DNA of 64,000 bases. Source: Bradyrhizobium sp. B124 (GTDB lineage Bacteria > Pseudomonadota > Alphaproteobacteria > Rhizobiales > Xanthobacteraceae). The position numbers were made by a program, and so were the translations under genes. Position 1 is the first letter of the stretch, and each line of letters begins with the position of its first letter. The stretch is from positions 868,001-932,000 of the forward strand of contig NZ_CP152413.1 of assembly GCF_038967635.1 (NCBI RefSeq). Reading direction: 5' to 3'. Below the pieces are notes generated by a model. That model searched no databases. It worked only from the letters and a program-made list of their open reading frames with translations, and was not told the origin of the DNA. Positions 28,040-35,616 of this stretch are shown here, one piece after another.

Positions 28040-28537
28040 ATGTCCCGTATCGCGCTCTATCCCGGCTCCTTCGATCCCGTCACCAACGGCCATCTCGACG
28101 TGGTCCGGCAGGCCGTCGGCCTGTGCGACCGCCTGGTCGTCGCCGTCGCCATTCATGCCGGCAAAAAGCCGCTGTTCTCGACCGAGGAACGGCTGGACAT
28201 GCTGCGCGAGGTGTGCGGCCCGATCGCCCAGCAAGCGGGCTGCGCCTTCGATTGCACCACCTATGACAATCTGACGGTGACGGCGGCGCGCAAGCTCGGC
28301 GCCACCATCATGATTCGCGGCCTGCGCGACGGCACCGATCTCGACTACGAGATGCAGCTCGCCGGCATGAACGAGGCGATGGCGCCCGAGGTGCATACCG
28401 TGTTCGTTCCGGCGTCGGTCGCGGTCCGCCCGATCACCGCCACACTGGTGCGCCAAATCGCCCAGATGGGCGGCGACTTCTCTGCATTCGTGCCGTCATC
28501 AGTCGCCGCTAGCCTGAAGGCCAAGTTCGCCGGCTGA
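28040..28537 (+). CDS. coaD: Phosphopantetheine adenylyltransferase
   Basis: This 165-residue enzyme makes dephospho-CoA from 4'-phosphopantetheine and ATP, the fourth step of CoA synthesis. The nucleotidyltransferase motif appears as [17 protein letters not shown], and [20 protein letters not shown] corresponds to the second conserved block. The ATG at 28040 is preceded by GGAGG at 28031. The open frame extends upstream but lacks family sequence. It begins a run of same-strand genes (two peptidyl-prolyl isomerases and queA), the usual order in Bradyrhizobium. Confidence 0.96.
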
Positions 28538-28584
28538 TGCCGGCGGCCTGCCACACCCAGAACGTCCAGAGGTCCGGAGTTTCC

Positions 28585-29148
28585 ATGATCCGCATTCTTG
28601 CATTCGTTGCCGCGCTGCTCTGCGTCGTGCCTGCGGTCGCGCAGCCGCTGCCTGCCAATCTCGACAAGGCCAATGCGATCGTGATCGACACCACCAAGGG
28701 CCGCATCGTCATCAAGCTGCGCACCGACATCGCGCCCCAGCATGCCGAGCGCATCAAGCAGCTGGCGCGCGAGGGCTTCTACAACAACGTGCCGTTCCAT
28801 CGCGTGATGGATGGCTTCATGGCGCAGACCGGCGACGGCCAGAACTTCAACGGCACCGGCGGCTCGAAATATCCGAACCTGAAGCAGGAATTCTCGCAGG
28901 TCCCGTTCAAGCGCGGCATCGTCGGCATGGCCCGGCGCGGCGACAGTGTTGACAGCGCCAATTCGCAGTTCTTCATCATGTTCGCCGACGGATCGAGCCT
29001 CAATGGCCAGTACACCGTGGTCGGCGAGGTGGTGTCGGGCATGGACGTGGTCGACAAGCTGAAGAAGGCTCCCGCGGGCTCTCCCGGCGGCGCCGTCACC
29101 GATCCCGACAAGATGGTGAAGGTGCAGGTCGCATCCGACATCAAGTGA
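28585..29148 (+). CDS. ppiA: Periplasmic peptidyl-prolyl cis-trans isomerase (cyclophilin)
   Basis: This 187-residue cyclophilin has a signal peptide (MIRILAFVAALLCVVPAVAQ), which places it in the periplasm. The core carries FHRVMDGFMAQTGDGQNFNG, with the catalytic arginine of FHR, and QFFIMFADGSSLNGQYTVVG, the substrate-binding part. It speeds proline isomerisation during folding. The cytoplasmic paralogue lies two genes downstream. The ATG at 28585 gives a normal signal peptide; the frame continues upstream to the coaD stop without family sequence. Confidence 0.92.
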   Translation: MIRILAFVAALLCVVPAVAQPLPANLDKANAIVIDTTKGRIVIKLRTDIAPQHAERIKQLAREGFYNNVPFHRVMDGFMAQTGDGQNFNGTGGSKYPNLKQEFSQVPFKRGIVGMARRGDSVDSANSQFFIMFADGSSLNGQYTVVGEVVSGMDVVDKLKKAPAGSPGGAVTDPDKMVKVQVASDIK

Positions 29149-29154
29149 TCGGCG

Positions 29155-29595
29155 ATGGCGGCGCGCAGCAAACCATTTGCCTGGTTCGCCGCGCCGCTGG
29201 TGCTGTGGCTTGCGCTGACCGGATCGGCGGCGGCGGAGCCGGAGCAACTCAATACGATCCGGGACGTTGTTCTGGCGATCCATCGCTGCTGGCGGCCGCC
29301 GGCGGCGGACAAGGCCGCTCCGATCGATATTACCGTCATTGTCAGCTTCAACCGTGAGGGCGCGATCCTCGGGCATCCCAGGATCAGCTATGAATCGCAG
29401 GAGGCGACCGACAACGACCGGATCGCGTACCGGGTCGCCGTGATGGAGGCGTTGCAACGCTGCACGCCGATGCCATTTACCGAGAGCCTGGGCGGCGCGG
29501 TGGCGGGTCGTCCATTCGCGATCCCGTTCCGGAACAAGAAATATCCACCCCGAAGCCAGGAGAAGCGAGCATGGCTGCTACCGAAAATACTCTGA
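29155..29595 (+). CDS. Secreted TonB-C-like small protein
   Basis: This 146-residue protein has an N-terminal signal region (KPFAWFAAPLVLWLALTGSA cut near AAAEP). It continues with a domain like the C-terminal part of TonB/TolA: PIDITVIVSFNREGAILGHP, a helix YRVAVMEALQRCTPMPF and the last strand FAIPFRNKKY. Such modules contact outer-membrane or periplasmic partners. Two cysteines could pair. Its 3' end overlaps the next gene by 25 bp, so it is co-transcribed with the two isomerases. A folding-related or envelope role is guessed from that context. Confidence 0.65.
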   Translation: MAARSKPFAWFAAPLVLWLALTGSAAAEPEQLNTIRDVVLAIHRCWRPPAADKAAPIDITVIVSFNREGAILGHPRISYESQEATDNDRIAYRVAVMEALQRCTPMPFTESLGGAVAGRPFAIPFRNKKYPPRSQEKRAWLLPKIL

Positions 29596-30035
29596 TCCTC
29601 GAAACCACCCAGGGCCCGGTCACGATCGAAATGCGCCCGGATCTCGCGCCCGGTCACGTCGCGCGGATCAAGGAGCTGGTGCGCGAAGGCTTCTACGACG
29701 GCATCGTGTTCCATCGCGTGATCGACGGCTTCATGGCGCAGACCGGCTGCCCGCAGGGCACCGGCATGGGCGGCTCCGGCAAGAAGCTGAAGGCGGAGTT
29801 CAACAAGGAGCCGCATGTCCGCGGCACCGCCTCGATGGCCCGCGCCGCCAATCCGGATTCCGGCGACAGCCAGTTCTTCATCTGCTTCGACGACGCCTCC
29901 TTCCTCAACGGCCAGTACACGGTCTGGGGCAAGGTCACCGAGGGCATGGAGAACGTCGACAAGATCAAGCGCGGCGAGCCGGTGAAGGATCCCGACAAGA
30001 TCGTCAAGGCGCGCATGGCCGCCGACGCGGCTTGA
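29571..30035 (+). CDS. ppiB: Cytoplasmic peptidyl-prolyl cis-trans isomerase (cyclophilin)
   Basis: This 154-residue cyclophilin has no signal peptide and is therefore cytoplasmic. It carries FHRVIDGFMAQTGCPQGTGM, with the catalytic Arg, and QFFICFDDASFLNGQYTVWG. Length and motifs match bacterial PpiB. The gene overlaps the preceding secreted protein by 25 bp. The paralogue at 28585 is the exported version, and the two probably arose by duplication within the operon. Confidence 0.94.
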   Translation: MAATENTLILETTQGPVTIEMRPDLAPGHVARIKELVREGFYDGIVFHRVIDGFMAQTGCPQGTGMGGSGKKLKAEFNKEPHVRGTASMARAANPDSGDSQFFICFDDASFLNGQYTVWGKVTEGMENVDKIKRGEPVKDPDKIVKARMAADAA

Positions 30036-30111: not shown

Positions 30112-31188
30112 ATGCGCACCGATCTCTTCGATTTCGAACTGCCGCCCGAGAGCATCGCGCTTCGCCCCGCGAGCCCGCGCGATTCCGCGCGGATGCTGGT
30201 GGTGCATCCGGACGGCGTGCTGCGCGACGCCACCATCGCGGACCTGCCGCATTGGCTGGAGGCGGGCGATCAGATCGTCGTCAACGACACCAAGGTGATT
30301 GCGGCCCAGCTCAAGGGCCGCCGGATCGGGCGCGAAACCGAGCCGAAGATCGAGGCGACCCTGATCAAGCGGCTCGACGGCTCGCGCTGGCAGGCGCTGG
30401 TGAAGCCGGCGAAGAAGCTTGCGCCCGGCGACACCATCCGCTTCGGCAATGAGGGCAAGGTCTGCCTGCTCGGCAATCTCGATGCAGAGGTCGAGGCCAA
30501 GGGGCAGGAGGGCGAGGTGACGCTGTCATTCTCGTTCCATGGTCCGGTGCTCGACCAGGCCATCGCCGATGTCGGCGCCACGCCGCTGCCGCCCTACATC
30601 GCCTCCAAGCGCACGCCCGACGACCAGGACGTCAGCGACTACCAGACCATGTTCGCCGCCCATGAAGGTGCGGTCGCCGCGCCGACGGCGGGGCTGCATT
30701 TCACGCCGGCGCTCGAGGCCACGCTGAAGAGCCGCGGCGTCGAACTGCATCGCCTGACGCTGCATGTCGGGGCAGGGACGTTTCTGCCGGTCAAAGTGGA
30801 CGAAACCTCCGAGCATAGGATGCATGCCGAATGGGGCTGCATCACCGCCGAGACCGCTTCTGCCTTGAACGCCGCGCGCGCAAAGGGCGGCCGGATCGTC
30901 GCGATCGGCACCACATCGCTGCGGCTGCTGGAGAGTGCCGCCAATGCCGACGGCACCATTCAGCCGTTTGCCGCGGAGACCTCGATCTTCATCACGCCGG
31001 GCTATCGCTTCCGCGCGGTCGATATCCTGCTGACGAATTTCCATCTGCCGCGTTCGACGCTGTTCATGCTGGTCTCGGCCTTCTCCGGCCTCGAGACGAT
31101 GCAGGCCGCCTACGCGCATGCGATCAGCGACGGCTACCGGTTCTATTCGTACGGCGATGCCTGCCTGCTGTTTCGGGCGGGCGATTAA
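30112..31188 (+). CDS. queA: tRNA S-adenosylmethionine:epoxyqueuosine ribosyltransferase-isomerase
   Basis: This 358-residue enzyme transfers and isomerises the ribosyl part of SAM onto 7-aminomethyl-deazaguanine in tRNA, giving epoxyqueuosine. It starts [20 protein letters not shown], the standard QueA opening, and has the [18 protein letters not shown] block and the ending [18 protein letters not shown]. Length is normal. The partner tgt, which installs the base, lies 4.6 kb downstream on the same strand, with the asd-patatin block between them. It is the last gene of the coaD run. Confidence 0.96.
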
Positions 31189-31338: not shown

Positions 31339-32364
31339 TCACGCCATCGCGCGCTCGGGCAGCAGCTCGGCGATCTGCACCGCGTTCAGTGCGGCACCCT
31401 TGAGCAACTGATCGGCCGCGACGAACATCGAGATCGAGTGCCCGGAGGGATCGCTGAGATCCTTGCGGATGCGGCCGACCAGCACGTCGTCCTGGCCGGA
31501 CGCATCGATCGGCATCGGGAAGTAGTTCTTGGCGCGGTCGTCGACGATCTTGACGCCCGGCGCCTGCGCCATGATTGCGCGCACCTGATCCTCCGTGATC
31601 GGCTTCTCGCATTCGAAGGTGATCGCCTCGCAATGCGCGCGCAGCACCGGCACCCGCACGCAGGTGACGCCGACGGCGATCTTGTCGTCCTCGAAGATCT
31701 TGTGGGTCTCCTTGATGACCTTGGTCTCTTCGTCGTTGTAGCCGGTCTCCGGATCGATGGCCGTGTTGTGATTGAACAGGTTGAAGGCGTAGGGGTGCGG
31801 CATCACCTTCGGGGTGTAGACCTGTCCGTTGAGATTGGCGCGGGTGGATTCGACGAGCTCCTCCATCGCGGCTGCTCCCGCGCCGCTCGCGGCCTGGTAG
31901 GTCGAGATGATCACGCGCTTGATGCGGTTCTTCCGGTGGATCGGCCACAGCGGCACCAGCGCGGTGATGGCGGCGCAGTTCGGGTTCGCGATGATGCCCT
32001 TGTGGTCGCGGATGCGGTTGGCGTTGATCTCGGGGATCACCAGCGGCACGTTCGGATCCATCCGGAAGGCCGACGAATTGTCGACCACGACGGCGCCGGA
32101 CTTCACCGCGACAGGCGCGAACTTCTTGGAGATGCCGCTGCCGGCCGAGAACAGCGCGATGTCGACGCCCTCGAAGGCGCGCTCGGTCAGCTCCTCGATC
32201 ATGACCGGCTTGCCGCGGAAGCTGACGGTCTTGCCAGCCGAGCGGGCGCTCGCCAGCGCCTTCAGCTTGCCGACGCGGAAGCCGCGCTTGTCCATGGTGG
32301 CGATGAATTCGGCGCCGACTGCGCCGGTGACGCCGACAATCGCGACGACGGGATCGTTACTCAC
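31339..32364 (-). CDS. asd: Aspartate-semialdehyde dehydrogenase
   Basis: This 341-residue enzyme reduces aspartyl phosphate to aspartate semialdehyde with NADPH, the branch point towards lysine, threonine and methionine and also diaminopimelate for the cell wall. The cofactor site reads VAIVGVTGAVGAEF and the active-site Cys is C130 in IIANPNCAAI. I prefer the GTG at 32364, because GGAGG lies five bases before it and inside the alternative start at 32376 (ATGGAGGACAAAGTG). It is preceded by a peptide gene and a terminator that look like an attenuator. Confidence 0.94.
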   Translation of the reverse strand: MSNDPVVAIVGVTGAVGAEFIATMDKRGFRVGKLKALASARSAGKTVSFRGKPVMIEELTERAFEGVDIALFSAGSGISKKFAPVAVKSGAVVVDNSSAFRMDPNVPLVIPEINANRIRDHKGIIANPNCAAITALVPLWPIHRKNRIKRVIISTYQAASGAGAAAMEELVESTRANLNGQVYTPKVMPHPYAFNLFNHNTAIDPETGYNDEETKVIKETHKIFEDDKIAVGVTCVRVPVLRAHCEAITFECEKPITEDQVRAIMAQAPGVKIVDDRAKNYFPMPIDASGQDDVLVGRIRKDLSDPSGHSISMFVAADQLLKGAALNAVQIAELLPERAMA

Positions 32365-32402
32365 TTTGTCCTCCATTCGAATCTGAGCATGACGCGGGCA
32401 AC

Positions 32403-32435
32403 AAAAAAGCCCCGGACCTTCATCAGGCGGGGCTT
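32403..32435 (-). terminator. Candidate attenuator terminator upstream of asd
   Basis: On the minus strand AAGCCCCG and CGGGGCTT form a perfect eight-base stem (32428-32435 with 32407-32414), followed by six T. The loop holds an inner CCT/AGG pairing. It lies 28 bases after the leader peptide stop and 38 bases before the GTG start of asd, so it can stop transcription before the gene. A segment at 32479-32489 inside the peptide gene can pair with 32429-32439, the terminator's 5' arm, over 10 of 11 positions. Confidence 0.75.
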
Positions 32436-32462
32436 CGGGTAGAGATGATGCTGTACGACCGA

Positions 32463-32534
32463 CTACGCGCGCACGCCTCCCGAGGCCCCAGAGGGCTTGG
32501 TGGTTTTGGTGGTGCGTTTGGTCGCGGTGATCAT
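32463..32534 (-). CDS. Thr/Lys-rich leader peptide of asd
   Basis: A 23-residue frame runs from ATG at 32534 to TAG at 32463. It starts MITATKRTTKTTK and then becomes Ser/Gly-rich. Six of the first twelve residues are threonine, all ACC, and there are three lysines, both end products of the pathway that Asd feeds. This is how attenuation leader peptides look, as in the E. coli thr leader. The start codon lies 8-9 bases after the -10 box, so the transcript would begin almost at the AUG. This resembles the leaderless trpL of Sinorhizobium. It is too short for normal gene finding, and its role is inferred. Confidence 0.65.
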   Translation of the reverse strand: MITATKRTTKTTKPSGASGGVRA

Positions 32535-32542
32535 AGCTCGGA

Positions 32543-32571
32543 CTTATGCGGCAGAGATCGGCGTCCGTCAA
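32543..32571 (-). promoter_or_regulatory. Sigma70-like promoter of the asd leader
   Basis: On the minus strand TTGACG (32566-32571) and CATAAG (32543-32548) are 17 bases apart, the ideal spacing. Transcription would start near 32535-32537, one to three bases before the leader ATG at 32534. Confidence 0.6.
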
Positions 32572-32625: not shown

Positions 32626-33243
32626 TCAGCGCCGGCGCGCGCCGGGCGGCTCGAGGATCACCTCTTTCAGATCGCCTCCAGTCAGCACCACGATGACGAA
32701 ATTGAGCTTGCCGCGCTCGCGCATCAAGCCGCCGCTGATCGCCTTGCCCGAGGTCGTGTGCTCGGCGACGCGCACGGCATCGGCGAGCCGATGCCGGAGC
32801 GCCCTGAGCACCACAAGGTTGTCGCGGTCCTCGGCGCCGAGGGAGGCCAGCGGCGAAGGCGGCTCGCCGCCGACCACCTGGCCGGTCGAGGCATCGATCG
32901 CATGCTGCCAGATGCGGTTCTGCTGCATGGTCTTGACCCGATAGACCGCGGGATCCGACGCGCCGTCGAAGCTGATGTCGGCGGTGATCGAGCCTGAGTG
33001 CAGCGCCTCCGCAATCGCCATCGCCTTGCGCAGCGAGATCTGGGCGGACTGGAAGCTGTCGAGCTCGCGGCGAACCGCATGCACGTCGAGCGCGCTATCA
33101 CTGTCCTGCGGGGTGAGCGCGGCGGCAGCCGAGCTCGTGATCGCATGGGCCGGCGACGCGAAGGGCAGGGCCAGCAGCGCGGTTGCAAGTAGCCGCGCTC
33201 CCAATGCCCAATGCCTCAGTGCGTGCAATCGTCCTGTCCTCAT
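32626..33243 (-). CDS. Secreted protein with two PepSY-like domains
   Basis: This 205-residue protein has a signal peptide (ALGARLLATALLALPFASPAHA) and two PepSY-like modules. The first includes SLRKAMAIAEALHSGSITAD and ends TGQVVGGE. The second includes DAVRVAEHTTSGKAISGGLM and ends GGDLKEVILEPP. PepSY modules inhibit or modulate peptidases and sense the envelope. Conserved cysteines are absent. The start at 33243 was chosen for the signal peptide; ATGs at 33264 and 33276 are alternatives. It lies upstream of the asd leader on the same strand. Confidence 0.7.
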   Translation of the reverse strand: MRTGRLHALRHWALGARLLATALLALPFASPAHAITSSAAAALTPQDSDSALDVHAVRRELDSFQSAQISLRKAMAIAEALHSGSITADISFDGASDPAVYRVKTMQQNRIWQHAIDASTGQVVGGEPPSPLASLGAEDRDNLVVLRALRHRLADAVRVAEHTTSGKAISGGLMRERGKLNFVIVVLTGGDLKEVILEPPGARRR

Positions 33244-33315
33244 CGTCGAACCTGTATTGAACATGTGCACGCGCATGACCCGCGTTCGCAGAGCGAGGGG
33301 CGGGCCGAGAAAGGT

Positions 33316-33533: not shown

Positions 33534-34271
33534 TCAGCGCGTCGGCCGGCGACGTGCTTTGGCGGCGTCACGCAGCCGGTCCCGCGGTCCCACGGCACCG
33601 GCGAGGAACAACCGGATCGAGACTTCCATCCGCGTCACGGCGGCTTTCATGTCGATCAGAATCCCGAACGTCGCCATCCGGTGGGTGTGGCCGACCACCA
33701 TGTTGAGGAAGGTCTCGGCCGCGATCGTCGTATCCTCGAGATCGAGGGCGCCGTTGTCGACCAGATGGTCGAAGAAATCCGCCGTCGTCGACACCGCTTT
33801 CGACCAGCCTTCGTCGACGGCAAGCTTGGCGATCTCGGGGAAATTGATCGCCTGCGCGGTCAGGATCCGGCTGAAGGCGATCGAGTCGGCGCTGCAGTTC
33901 AGCACCAGCAGCTGGCGCCCGAGCTCGATCAGCCGTTCCTCGACCGAGCCATCGCAGCTACCGCCGGCCTGCGCTTCGGCCGCCGCGGCGGCGAGCGGGG
34001 CAAGCCACCGGGCAATTTCGCGCCTGAGCACCGCGGTGAACAGGCCGCGCTTGTCGCCGTACTGTCCGTAGACGGTGGGCTTGCTGACGCGGGCGGCCTC
34101 CGCCACGGCGTCGATCGACGTCGCATCGAAGCCGCGCTCGAGGAACAGGCGCGTGGCGACCTCGATCAGCCGCTGGTCGCGCTCGATCGCAGCATCCCGG
34201 GTCGGCCGGCCGCCACGTGACTTGATCACGCCGCGCTTGGCCACCTTGGCCTTGGTTGCCGTCAATCCCAT
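33534..34271 (-). CDS. TetR/AcrR-family transcriptional regulator
   Basis: This 245-residue repressor has the N-terminal helix-turn-helix of the family: RLIEVATRLFLERGFDATSI, then AARVSKPTVYGQYGDKRGLF. The C-terminal part is a ligand-binding helical domain ending in a basic, Pro/Arg-rich tail (RDRLRDAAKARRRPTR), perhaps a second DNA contact. It lies 97 bp after the patatin gene on the same strand, so the two may form an operon. Two near-identical palindromes at 33456 and 35617 flank this unit and are the best candidates for its operators. The effector is unknown. Confidence 0.85.
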   Translation of the reverse strand: MGLTATKAKVAKRGVIKSRGGRPTRDAAIERDQRLIEVATRLFLERGFDATSIDAVAEAARVSKPTVYGQYGDKRGLFTAVLRREIARWLAPLAAAAAEAQAGGSCDGSVEERLIELGRQLLVLNCSADSIAFSRILTAQAINFPEIAKLAVDEGWSKAVSTTADFFDHLVDNGALDLEDTTIAAETFLNMVVGHTHRMATFGILIDMKAAVTRMEVSIRLFLAGAVGPRDRLRDAAKARRRPTR

Positions 34272-34368: not shown

Positions 34369-35502
34369 TTAGGGCGGCGTCGCGGTCCAGGCCTGCCCCG
34401 CGGCGGCCTTCTCGTAGCCGTGCTGGTAGAGCGCGCGCATATAGGCGGTGTCGAAGCCCTGGGTTTCCGGCGCCGGATAGTCGCGCTCGATGTAGGACAG
34501 ATGGAAGCCCAGCCGGTTGCGCAGGGCGAAATCATAGGTCGAGAGAATGACCGAGCGCGTCTGCGCCTGGGTGATCGCGGAAATGCTGCGTGAGGCGACG
34601 TCGATCGTCGAGTTCGACACCAGCTCGAAGTTGCCCTCGAGCTTCTTGTTGACGAGGATGTAGATGTTCATGCGGCCATCGGCCGGCCAGGCACGCTCGC
34701 GGAACAGCAGTGCGTCCGGCAGCGTCAGGACCGGCGCAGTCACGCCGCCGTCGACATGCATCTCCTGGAAGCGGCGGCCCTGGCCCTCGGCGTCGATCAT
34801 GATCGGCGGAAACACCAGCGGGATGCTGGCGGAGGCCGCCATCACGTCGCGAAACAGCTGCAGCGCCTCCGGCGTTCCGACGGCGGCGATCCGTCCCATG
34901 TCCCAGATCACCGTGCGCTGGGTGTCGAGATCGGTGGTGGCGATCAGGAGCTTTCGGCCCTTGGCGTTTTCGCGCGCCACCTCGCTCAGGACGTCCTGGC
35001 CGACGTAACGCGCCACCAGCTCGCGCAGCCGCTTGTTGCCGAACAGGCCGGAGCCGAACAGCACCCGCATCAGGCTCGGGTCCTGCAGCAGACTTTCGGC
35101 GATCCCGGACGTGTAGACCTCTCTCAACGTATCGTCGTAGCGCGGGCCGAGGAATGCAAAGGGCGCGATCAGCCCGCCGGTGCTGACACCGGAGACGACC
35201 GAAAAGTTCGGACGGTTGCCGGCCGCGGTCCAACCGTTGAGGACGCCGACGCCATAGGCGCCGTCTGCGCCGCCGCCGGAGAGGGCGAGGTAGGTCTTGA
35301 TCGGGGCGCGGTCGCTCTTCTCGAGCCGGAATTTGGACGCCGGCTCGTCGGCGTAGCGGCGCAGCCCGTCGAGATCGAGCACCCGCGAATTGGCGGCGTC
35401 GGCCGCCGTGTAAGGCATCCGCGGCAGCGAGCTGCAGGCCGCCACCGCGAAGGCAAGCCCGCACAGCAGCACCGCTCGCCGGATCACATGACCAGCTGTC
35501 AT
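34369..35502 (-). CDS. Patatin-like phospholipase, lipoprotein
   Basis: This 377-residue protein starts with a lipoprotein signal ending in a lipobox (AFAVAAC), so it is probably tethered to a membrane facing the periplasm. The patatin fold follows: the oxyanion-hole [15 protein letters not shown], the nucleophile elbow GVSTG and the catalytic aspartate in MHVDGG. Family members hydrolyse lipid acyl esters. The ATG at 35502 begins the signal; an ATG at 35547 adds 15 residues. A palindromic operator is 115 bp upstream and a tetR gene follows, suggesting regulation by that repressor. Confidence 0.85.
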
Positions 35503-35616
35503 CCGATGGCGGATGCCGTCAGGCCGGGCGCTGCAGGGTGGGAACATCTCGGCCAGTCAGGTTTCACGCGGATTGCAGTCGCGGCGGGAACGATCCGCCG
35601 CCTTATTCTCGACATA

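Follow-up and report, generated by a model that had tools for sequence, protein, structure and literature searches.

The thrL attenuator of Escherichia coli regulates thrABC through a leader peptide that contains Thr and Ile codons, encoded in an ordinary 5' untranslated region (UTR) with a Shine–Dalgarno (SD) sequence. In Bacillus subtilis, thrZ is a second threonyl-tRNA synthetase (ThrRS) gene under T-box control. A study published by Vitreschak et al. in 2004 may contain predictions related to the system described here.

According to the available text of a report on Sinorhizobium meliloti trpL (rnTrpL, peTrpL), the RNA starts directly at the AUG of a short open reading frame (ORF), and roles in trans are reported for peTrpL (PMC7298713). 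Another short ORF of S. meliloti, SEP5, contains six Thr and three Lys codons and lies in the 5' UTR of a gene named 'aspartate dehydrogenase'; in the part of the source available, SEP5 is described as translated and is proposed as a possible leader peptide (PMC10117765). Our guess is that the gene downstream of SEP5 is asd. In published work on such leaders, SEP5 is the only directly relevant precedent that we found. In Bradyrhizobium japonicum, 320 transcription start sites are reported 0–10 nucleotides before start codons, in a paper whose available main text does not mention asd (PMC4842269). The accessible portion of PMC2965389 mentions neither asd nor Bradyrhizobium, and in that of PMC4833913 we found nothing on asd, threonine or rhizobia.

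Here we analyse a short leader ORF upstream of an asd gene in Bradyrhizobium sp. B124, contained in a stretch of 64,000 nucleotides (the window). Like thrL, the ORF encodes a Thr-rich peptide and is associated with overlapping terminator and antiterminator structures; it differs from thrL, with its Thr and Ile codons and SD-bearing 5' UTR, and it precedes another operon. The likeness to thrZ is that of a starvation-inducible second copy, a parallel to the short ThrRS gene described below; the T-box RNA binds tRNA directly, whereas here a translated ORF would do the sensing. With S. meliloti trpL, as far as it is described in the available text, the locus shares an alphaproteobacterial host, a start at the AUG (predicted in our case), control codons, and a terminator and antiterminator before a biosynthetic gene; it has Thr and Lys codons in place of Trp and another gene downstream, and trans roles are reported for trpL (PMC7298713). 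Like SEP5, the window leader has six Thr and three Lys codons, but in SEP5, from the available description, the cluster lies near the 3' end of the ORF, as in the asd leaders found across the order and unlike those of the window type (PMC10117765). We consider it likely that the element in the window is a leaderless, ribosome-mediated transcription attenuator that senses threonine and lysine and serves a second copy of asd.

Results

Parts of the leader

The first-pass annotation of this DNA had read the region upstream of asd as an attenuator built from four parts: an ORF of 23 codons, of which six are ACC and three encode Lys; a perfect stem of 8 bp together with six T; a segment of the ORF able to pair with the terminator region at 10 of 11 positions; and a TTGACG-N17-CATAAG promoter-like sequence. 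All four are present and exact to the base (Table 1), and all are conserved across the genus, which supports the attenuation reading. The ACC codons are codons 3, 5, 8, 9, 11 and 12; codons 6, 10 and 13 are AAA, AAA and AAG. The position of the promoter predicts an RNA start about 0–3 nucleotides ahead of the leader ATG. Two of the six T of the terminator fall inside its stem. A short element within the control codons could pair with one near the end of the ORF, and this possible protector pairing may keep segment 3 free when the leader is untranslated. The product of asd scores 431 bits against NCBIfam PRK14874 and 405 bits against asd_B, both above cut-off. There are no aspartate-pathway genes among the six neighbours of asd examined in the window.

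Table 1. Positions in the window of the leader elements, asd and its neighbours
Feature	Position	Strand	Description
−35 element	32566..32571	−	TTGACG; putative promoter element
−10 element	32543..32548	−	CATAAG; 17 nt from −35, 8 nt from leader ATG; putative promoter element
Leader peptide ORF	32463..32534	−	MITATKRTTKTTKPSGASGGVRA; 23 sense codons, apparently leaderless; ATG 32534–32532, TAG 32465–32463
Control codons 3–13	32496..32528	−	six ACC (Thr), three AAA/AAG (Lys)
Segment 2	32479..32489	−	antiterminator 5' strand GGGGCCTCGGG; inside leader codons 16–19
Segment 3	32429..32439	−	CCCGAAGCCCC; common to antiterminator and terminator; pairs with segment 2 at 10/11 positions
Intrinsic terminator	32403..32435	−	predicted; 8-bp stem, 13-nt loop, six T
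Terminator 5' arm	32435–32428	−	AAGCCCCG
Terminator 3' arm	32414–32407	−	CGGGGCTT
Terminator T run	32408–32403	−	
Possible protector pairing	32470..32516	−	CGCAC (32516–32512) with GTGCG (32474–32470); putative
asd, second copy	31339..32364	−	341 aa; GTG start 32364, SD GGAGG 32374–32370, stop at 31339
PepSY-domain protein	32629–33276	−	neighbour of asd
TetR regulator	33537–34271	−	neighbour of asd
Patatin-like protein	34372–35547	−	neighbour of asd
queA	30112–31185	+	convergent to asd
Cyclophilin	29571–30032	+	convergent to asd
Cyclophilin	28537–29145	+	convergent to asd

Could such an ORF arise by chance? On the two strands of the window, the leader is the sole ATG ORF of 10–45 codons with a Thr/Lys score of at least 6. 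A score of 5 is reached by five ORFs, and of the ORFs in the window that score at least 5 the leader alone has a terminator no more than 100 nt away. Elsewhere in 80 Bradyrhizobium loci, over 617,722 nt with each strand counted separately, 103 ORFs score at least 5 and none scores at least 6. These controls, in the window and in the 80 loci, rule out a chance ORF.

Generic tools gave a different result. A generic scanner missed both the window promoter, since it demands a T as the sixth base of the −10, and the window terminator, since it permits loops of at most 8; the 147-nt leader region folds no better than its shuffles (z −0.41). The case for an attenuator therefore rests on comparison. 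Against the Rfam covariance models, the window gives only a tRNA at gathering score; a search of 16 loci at E 0.01 gave three matches, all below gathering score and all to unrelated families. Since no leader or T-box family matches the window or these loci at gathering score, membership in a known Rfam family of this kind is ruled out.

Conservation in Bradyrhizobium

Our sample consisted of 87 loci. Seven come from genomes of a family search, six of them of the window's genus and one (L009) of a different genus in that family; the remaining 80 are from named contigs, the 80 best among 572. Two duplicate pairs (L004/L073 and L006/L102) reduce these to 85 distinct loci. Comparison with the asd upstream regions of other Bradyrhizobium had been suggested as a check on the original proposal, and the leader is conserved: a Thr/Lys leader followed by a terminator (score at least 10) is found at 87 of 87 Bradyrhizobium-type asd loci. 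All 85 distinct loci carry the terminator motif GGGGCTTTTT, and all 85 have at least five T.

The spacing of the putative promoter is conserved as well. A script that sought an in-frame ATG 31–45 nt downstream of TTGAC placed the leader ATG 36–39 nt from TTGAC in 84 of the 85 distinct loci, and at exactly 37 nt in 77. In the loci printed, the −10 is either CATAAG or a shifted, TATGGT-like form. The spacing exception is L123, in which the −35 is missing and the sequence just before the −10 is changed; Bradyrhizobium sp. CSA207 has two copies of the asd–attenuator unit, L117 and L123, the latter being the second copy. Two further Bradyrhizobium loci were compared with the pattern. L348 fits it; L347 (genome G874) does not, having a 1-nt deletion in the leader tail after which the frame runs to the asd start region. 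One locus (L085) lies on a contig labelled Frankia sp. RB7, and its asd is 94% identical to that of the window; the label is probably wrong.

Among 81 loci there are 50 distinct versions of the 23-codon leader. Over codons 3–13 of these 50 leaders, third positions are the most variable (0.56 bit versus 0.32 and 0.31 at first and second positions). Over codons 14–23, third positions are the least variable (0.23 versus 0.41 and 0.42 bit). Judged by this pattern of variation, leader codons 3–13 evolve as codons and codons 14–23 as RNA.

Predicted structures and a proposed mechanism

In the folding calculations, the ribosome was modelled as covering 15 nt from the A-site codon, which is an assumption. 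The best duplex between the leader and the terminator 5' arm begins at codon 15 in 72 of the 85 loci. Across the 85, this antiterminator duplex has a mean energy of −18.6 kcal/mol and a mean z of −2.2 against letter shuffles; that of L009 is weak (−11.4 kcal/mol) and no better than shuffles. With no ribosome on the RNA, the terminator helix has a predicted probability above 0.5 in 82 of the 85 loci, a result that the protector idea fits, and with a ribosome at the stop codon it does so in all 85.

The outcome of stalling in the model depends on its position. At equilibrium, the antiterminator prevails in 63 of the 85 loci when the ribosome stalls at codon 11, but in just 26 for codon 5 and 18 for codon 8; for codon 13 it prevails in no locus. 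For the window's own sequence, the antiterminator probability is 0.83 and 0.82 for stalls at codons 5 and 8, and 0.46 for codon 11. When nascent RNA is folded before the terminator 3' arm exists, the probability for the antiterminator region exceeds 0.5 in all 85 loci. In the folding model, then, stalls upstream of codon 13 can act, and the decisive codon varies between clades.

We propose the following sequence of events. RNA polymerase would start 0–3 nt before the leader AUG, and a 70S ribosome would initiate on this 5' AUG and trail the polymerase. With ample charged tRNA-Thr and tRNA-Lys, the ribosome would reach the UAG and cover segment 2, and the predicted terminator would form and turn asd off. 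If either charged tRNA is scarce, the ribosome would stall at a Thr or Lys codon no later than about codon 12, leaving segment 2 to pair with the terminator 5' arm, and the polymerase would go on to transcribe asd. A leader that is not translated would tend towards the terminator fold. As a result, extra aspartate-semialdehyde dehydrogenase would be made when threonine or lysine is limiting.

A second, apparently mobile asd

The genome carries three Asd homologs: the one in the window, one at position 5431832 (44% identical) and one at 7821609 (40%). The homolog at 5431832 is the usual type across the family and order; the third (7821609–7823371) directly precedes an aspartokinase-like gene. 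We looked for the leader at both of these homologs and found it at neither, and the roughly 1.3 kb ahead of the hom, thrC and lysC matches of this genome are likewise free of Thr/Lys leaders. At E ≤ 1e-95, 31 of 387 genomes of the class and 14 of 299 of the phylum have an Asd of the window type, own genus included. The asd of the window is apparently a second, mobile copy.

The leader score is reached in 21 of 34 further window-type asd loci, one of the 21 being Bradyrhizobium. Leaders below threshold are visible by eye at L330, L334, L341 and L350, and none was seen in eight of the 34 (L324, L325, L327, L329, L332, L333, L335 and L338); the frameshifted L347 completes the set. A hairpin resembling GCCCCGCC...CGGGGC lies downstream of the leader in 16 of the 34. 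Many relatives outside Bradyrhizobium have no long U-tract, and of 29 diverse sequences only 12 have an antiterminator pairing that outdoes 95% of shuffles. By eye, GTCTCC...GGAGAC-like arms flank the asd SD in L326, L330, L336, L320 and other non-Bradyrhizobium relatives, a possible extra layer of translational control.

In a tree of 55 Asd proteins, from which L323, L333, L338 and L341 (in-frame stop) are omitted, the window type forms one clade (support 100/99). This clade splits, with weak support (87/67, 86/55), into six rows without a visible leader and 32 with one, 28 by score and 4 by eye. The Bradyrhizobium rows adjoin L319 (79% identity), which comes from a different order of the class and whose leader, promoter and terminator are built as in Bradyrhizobium. 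This placement of a locus with the same build suggests that the attenuator moves together with its asd gene. The presence of the same module in other orders also rules out conservation through close relatedness alone.

The original proposal had named covarying stems in related genomes as a source of support. We aligned 23 of the 29 diverse leaders (alignment A1), leaving out L346, L340, L351, L339 and L342 for a wrong choice of hairpin and L322 for being near-identical to L321. The terminator helix has 84.5% paired cells in these 23 leaders, and at most 67.6% when it is slid. It shows 8 two-sided changes versus 3.6 in shuffles, with just 1 shuffle in 500 reaching that count, but only 2 pairs carry such changes, no more than in shuffles (1.8).

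A different build in the usual asd leaders

In the rest of the order, outside the family, we collected 126 asd loci from 125 genomes and 45 families. A Thr/Lys-rich ORF lies upstream in 75 of them, 65 at a stricter score; among the controls, such an ORF is present in none of 126 reverse complements and in 34 of 2520 shuffles, or in 3 of these once the stricter score is applied. Of the 75, L033 is of the window type; the other 74, which precede the usual asd, are spread over 25 of the 45 families. Within the family, 22 of the 23 loci L010–L032 are below score; the exception, L023, has an ORF that lies 376 nt upstream and scores 5.0. The class search covered 69 loci, one of them from the window's order, and 6 of these reached the score.

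These order-type leaders place their codons elsewhere. The Thr/Lys cluster ends 0–4 codons before the stop in all 69 tested of the 74, and 10–11 codons before it in 81 of 85 window-type leaders. This difference in build rules out that the window leader arose by transfer of the common asd leader of the order to another gene.

What follows the leader differs as well. A terminator score of at least 10 between leader stop and asd is reached in only 3 of the 74 order-type loci. In the loci read, among them L036, L043, L052 and L058, the leader is followed by a long closing helix that surrounds one or two hairpins and reaches near the asd SD. The MAFFT alignment of 38 order-type 3' regions (A2) was too gappy for a pair count, and the helix was counted in single-sequence folds only, where 64 of 69 loci have six or more closing pairs. 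The duplex of the order type has a mean z of only −0.9, with 15 of 69 beating 95% of shuffles. Perhaps the order-type leader is a different, translational switch, in which a stalled ribosome would block the closing helix; it is possibly an undescribed RNA element.

Recoded leaders upstream of other genes

From the 23 diverse Asd leaders we built a model, R1. In this genome the window locus ranks first (E 7.5e-21). The second match (L354, 1221711–1221831, plus strand; E 3e-9) has a terminator and a Thr-coded leader, MSLTTATTSLGGSSPGRMR from the inner ATG and 25 codons from the outer, with a promoter-to-ATG build resembling that of the window leader. It precedes a second, short thrS (TIGR00418) whose reading frame is broken here by a stop; the full-length thrS is located elsewhere. 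The third match, at 3118962 (E 3e-4), has a terminator-like hairpin and no visible leader. The fourth (L356, 7017493–7017586, minus strand; E 4e-4) consists of a leader with a Lys-Lys pair, MITTSCAVLSSKKAPLPGTRDRAR, and a terminator, before a dapA homolog that scores 205.5 bits against TIGR00674, under the cut-off of 206.15. The proposed shared chassis would be an ORF tail with GGGGC and TGCGCGCG, then a GGCCCCGCC...GGACGGGGCC terminator.

R1 has matches at 1e-3 in 59 of 387 genomes of the class. We classed 34 of the matching loci, part of the full list, according to motifs found in the frames downstream: 14 precede ThrRS, 6 Asd, 4 DapA and 10 other genes. The last group includes two GNAT acetyltransferases, one Antibiotic_NAT, one DUF1127 and one TGS-domain protein that is probably a full-length ThrRS. 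At L401, L403 and L407 a similar chassis, with no Thr/Lys clusters, lies before the GNAT acetyltransferase and Antibiotic_NAT genes.

Leaders of ThrRS genes contain on average 5.2 Thr and 0.6 Lys codons, those of Asd genes 6.0 and 2.3. At least two Lys codons occur in 6 of 6 Asd leaders versus 1 of 14 ThrRS leaders (Fisher 1.8e-4). Two scored DapA leaders have 2–3 Lys and 0–1 Thr codons, and in the remaining two, Lys clusters can be seen by eye. R1 was trained on Thr/Lys leaders, so that some of the Thr richness of its matches is to be expected, but this does not hold for the low Lys content before ThrRS or the low Thr content before DapA. In the loci compared here, the codon content of the leader follows the downstream gene.

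Discussion

Taken as sequence evidence, these comparisons indicate that the Thr/Lys attenuator is real and conserved, and that it very probably works. The leader itself adds to a known kind of attenuator; what is unexpected is the family around it. It is slightly more likely than not that the window leader belongs to an undescribed alphaproteobacterial family of near-leaderless attenuators, in which mainly the control codons change on one RNA chassis: Thr plus Lys for a mobile second asd, Thr for a second ThrRS, Lys for a dapA homolog and other codons for acetyltransferases.

Does the attenuator sense lysine at all? It might respond to threonine alone, with the Lys codons as bystanders that supply A-rich, unstructured RNA. 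The excess of Thr over Lys codons in the window leader (six versus three) fits this idea, and the related ThrRS leaders indeed do with Thr codons and few Lys. Yet among the 50 distinct leaders K6 (50/50) and K10 (49/50) vary no more than the most conserved Thr codons, T8 (49/50) and T11 (50/50), and codons 12–13 switch between Thr and Lys from leader to leader. Furthermore, the counted Asd leaders keep at least two Lys codons, which the ThrRS leaders mostly do not. We regard sensing of threonine alone as unlikely, though it deserves to be taken seriously. Because the related ThrRS leaders have Thr codons and few Lys, it is probable that the Lys codons here belong to the signal.

A second question is where control is exerted. 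If it acted mainly through translation of asd or through Rho, intrinsic termination would matter little, as might be expected from the many relatives outside Bradyrhizobium without a long U-tract and from the GTCTCC...GGAGAC arms seen by eye around the asd SD in several of them. In Bradyrhizobium, however, the strong stem is present at every locus (87/87), with at least five T in each distinct one (85/85), and by eye no SD hairpin of the GTCTCC...GGAGAC type is seen in the window. For the window leader, control of this kind is improbable.

It is also quite improbable that the terminated short RNA, together with its peptide, works chiefly in trans, in the manner of rnTrpL and peTrpL, with attenuation in cis as a secondary effect. 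The near-leaderless build is that of trpL, for which the available text reports trans roles of peTrpL (PMC7298713), but the peptide tail varies like RNA rather than protein, and different peptides with the same build precede other genes. That the ORF is spurious and the hairpin a mere terminator or fixed brake on asd is scarcely credible: short ORFs are common in G+C-rich DNA and translation of the leader is deduced from sequence, but a plain terminator with a spurious ORF is ruled out by the promoter spacing (84/85) and the third-position variation in codons 3–13, and a Thr/Lys ORF at all 87 loci, the chance control and codons that track the downstream gene also stand against it.

Control of asd by Thr/Lys leader peptides appears widespread in Alphaproteobacteria, in at least two builds and with no Rfam match. 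The window type provides a natural codon-swap series on one chassis (Thr, Thr plus Lys, and Lys), and the claim that amino acids are sensed is thus directly testable. These loci suggest that extra copies of asd, thrS and perhaps dapA are kept in reserve for starvation. If the family is as we describe it, these spare enzymes would be switched on only by starvation or by a block in the housekeeping copy.
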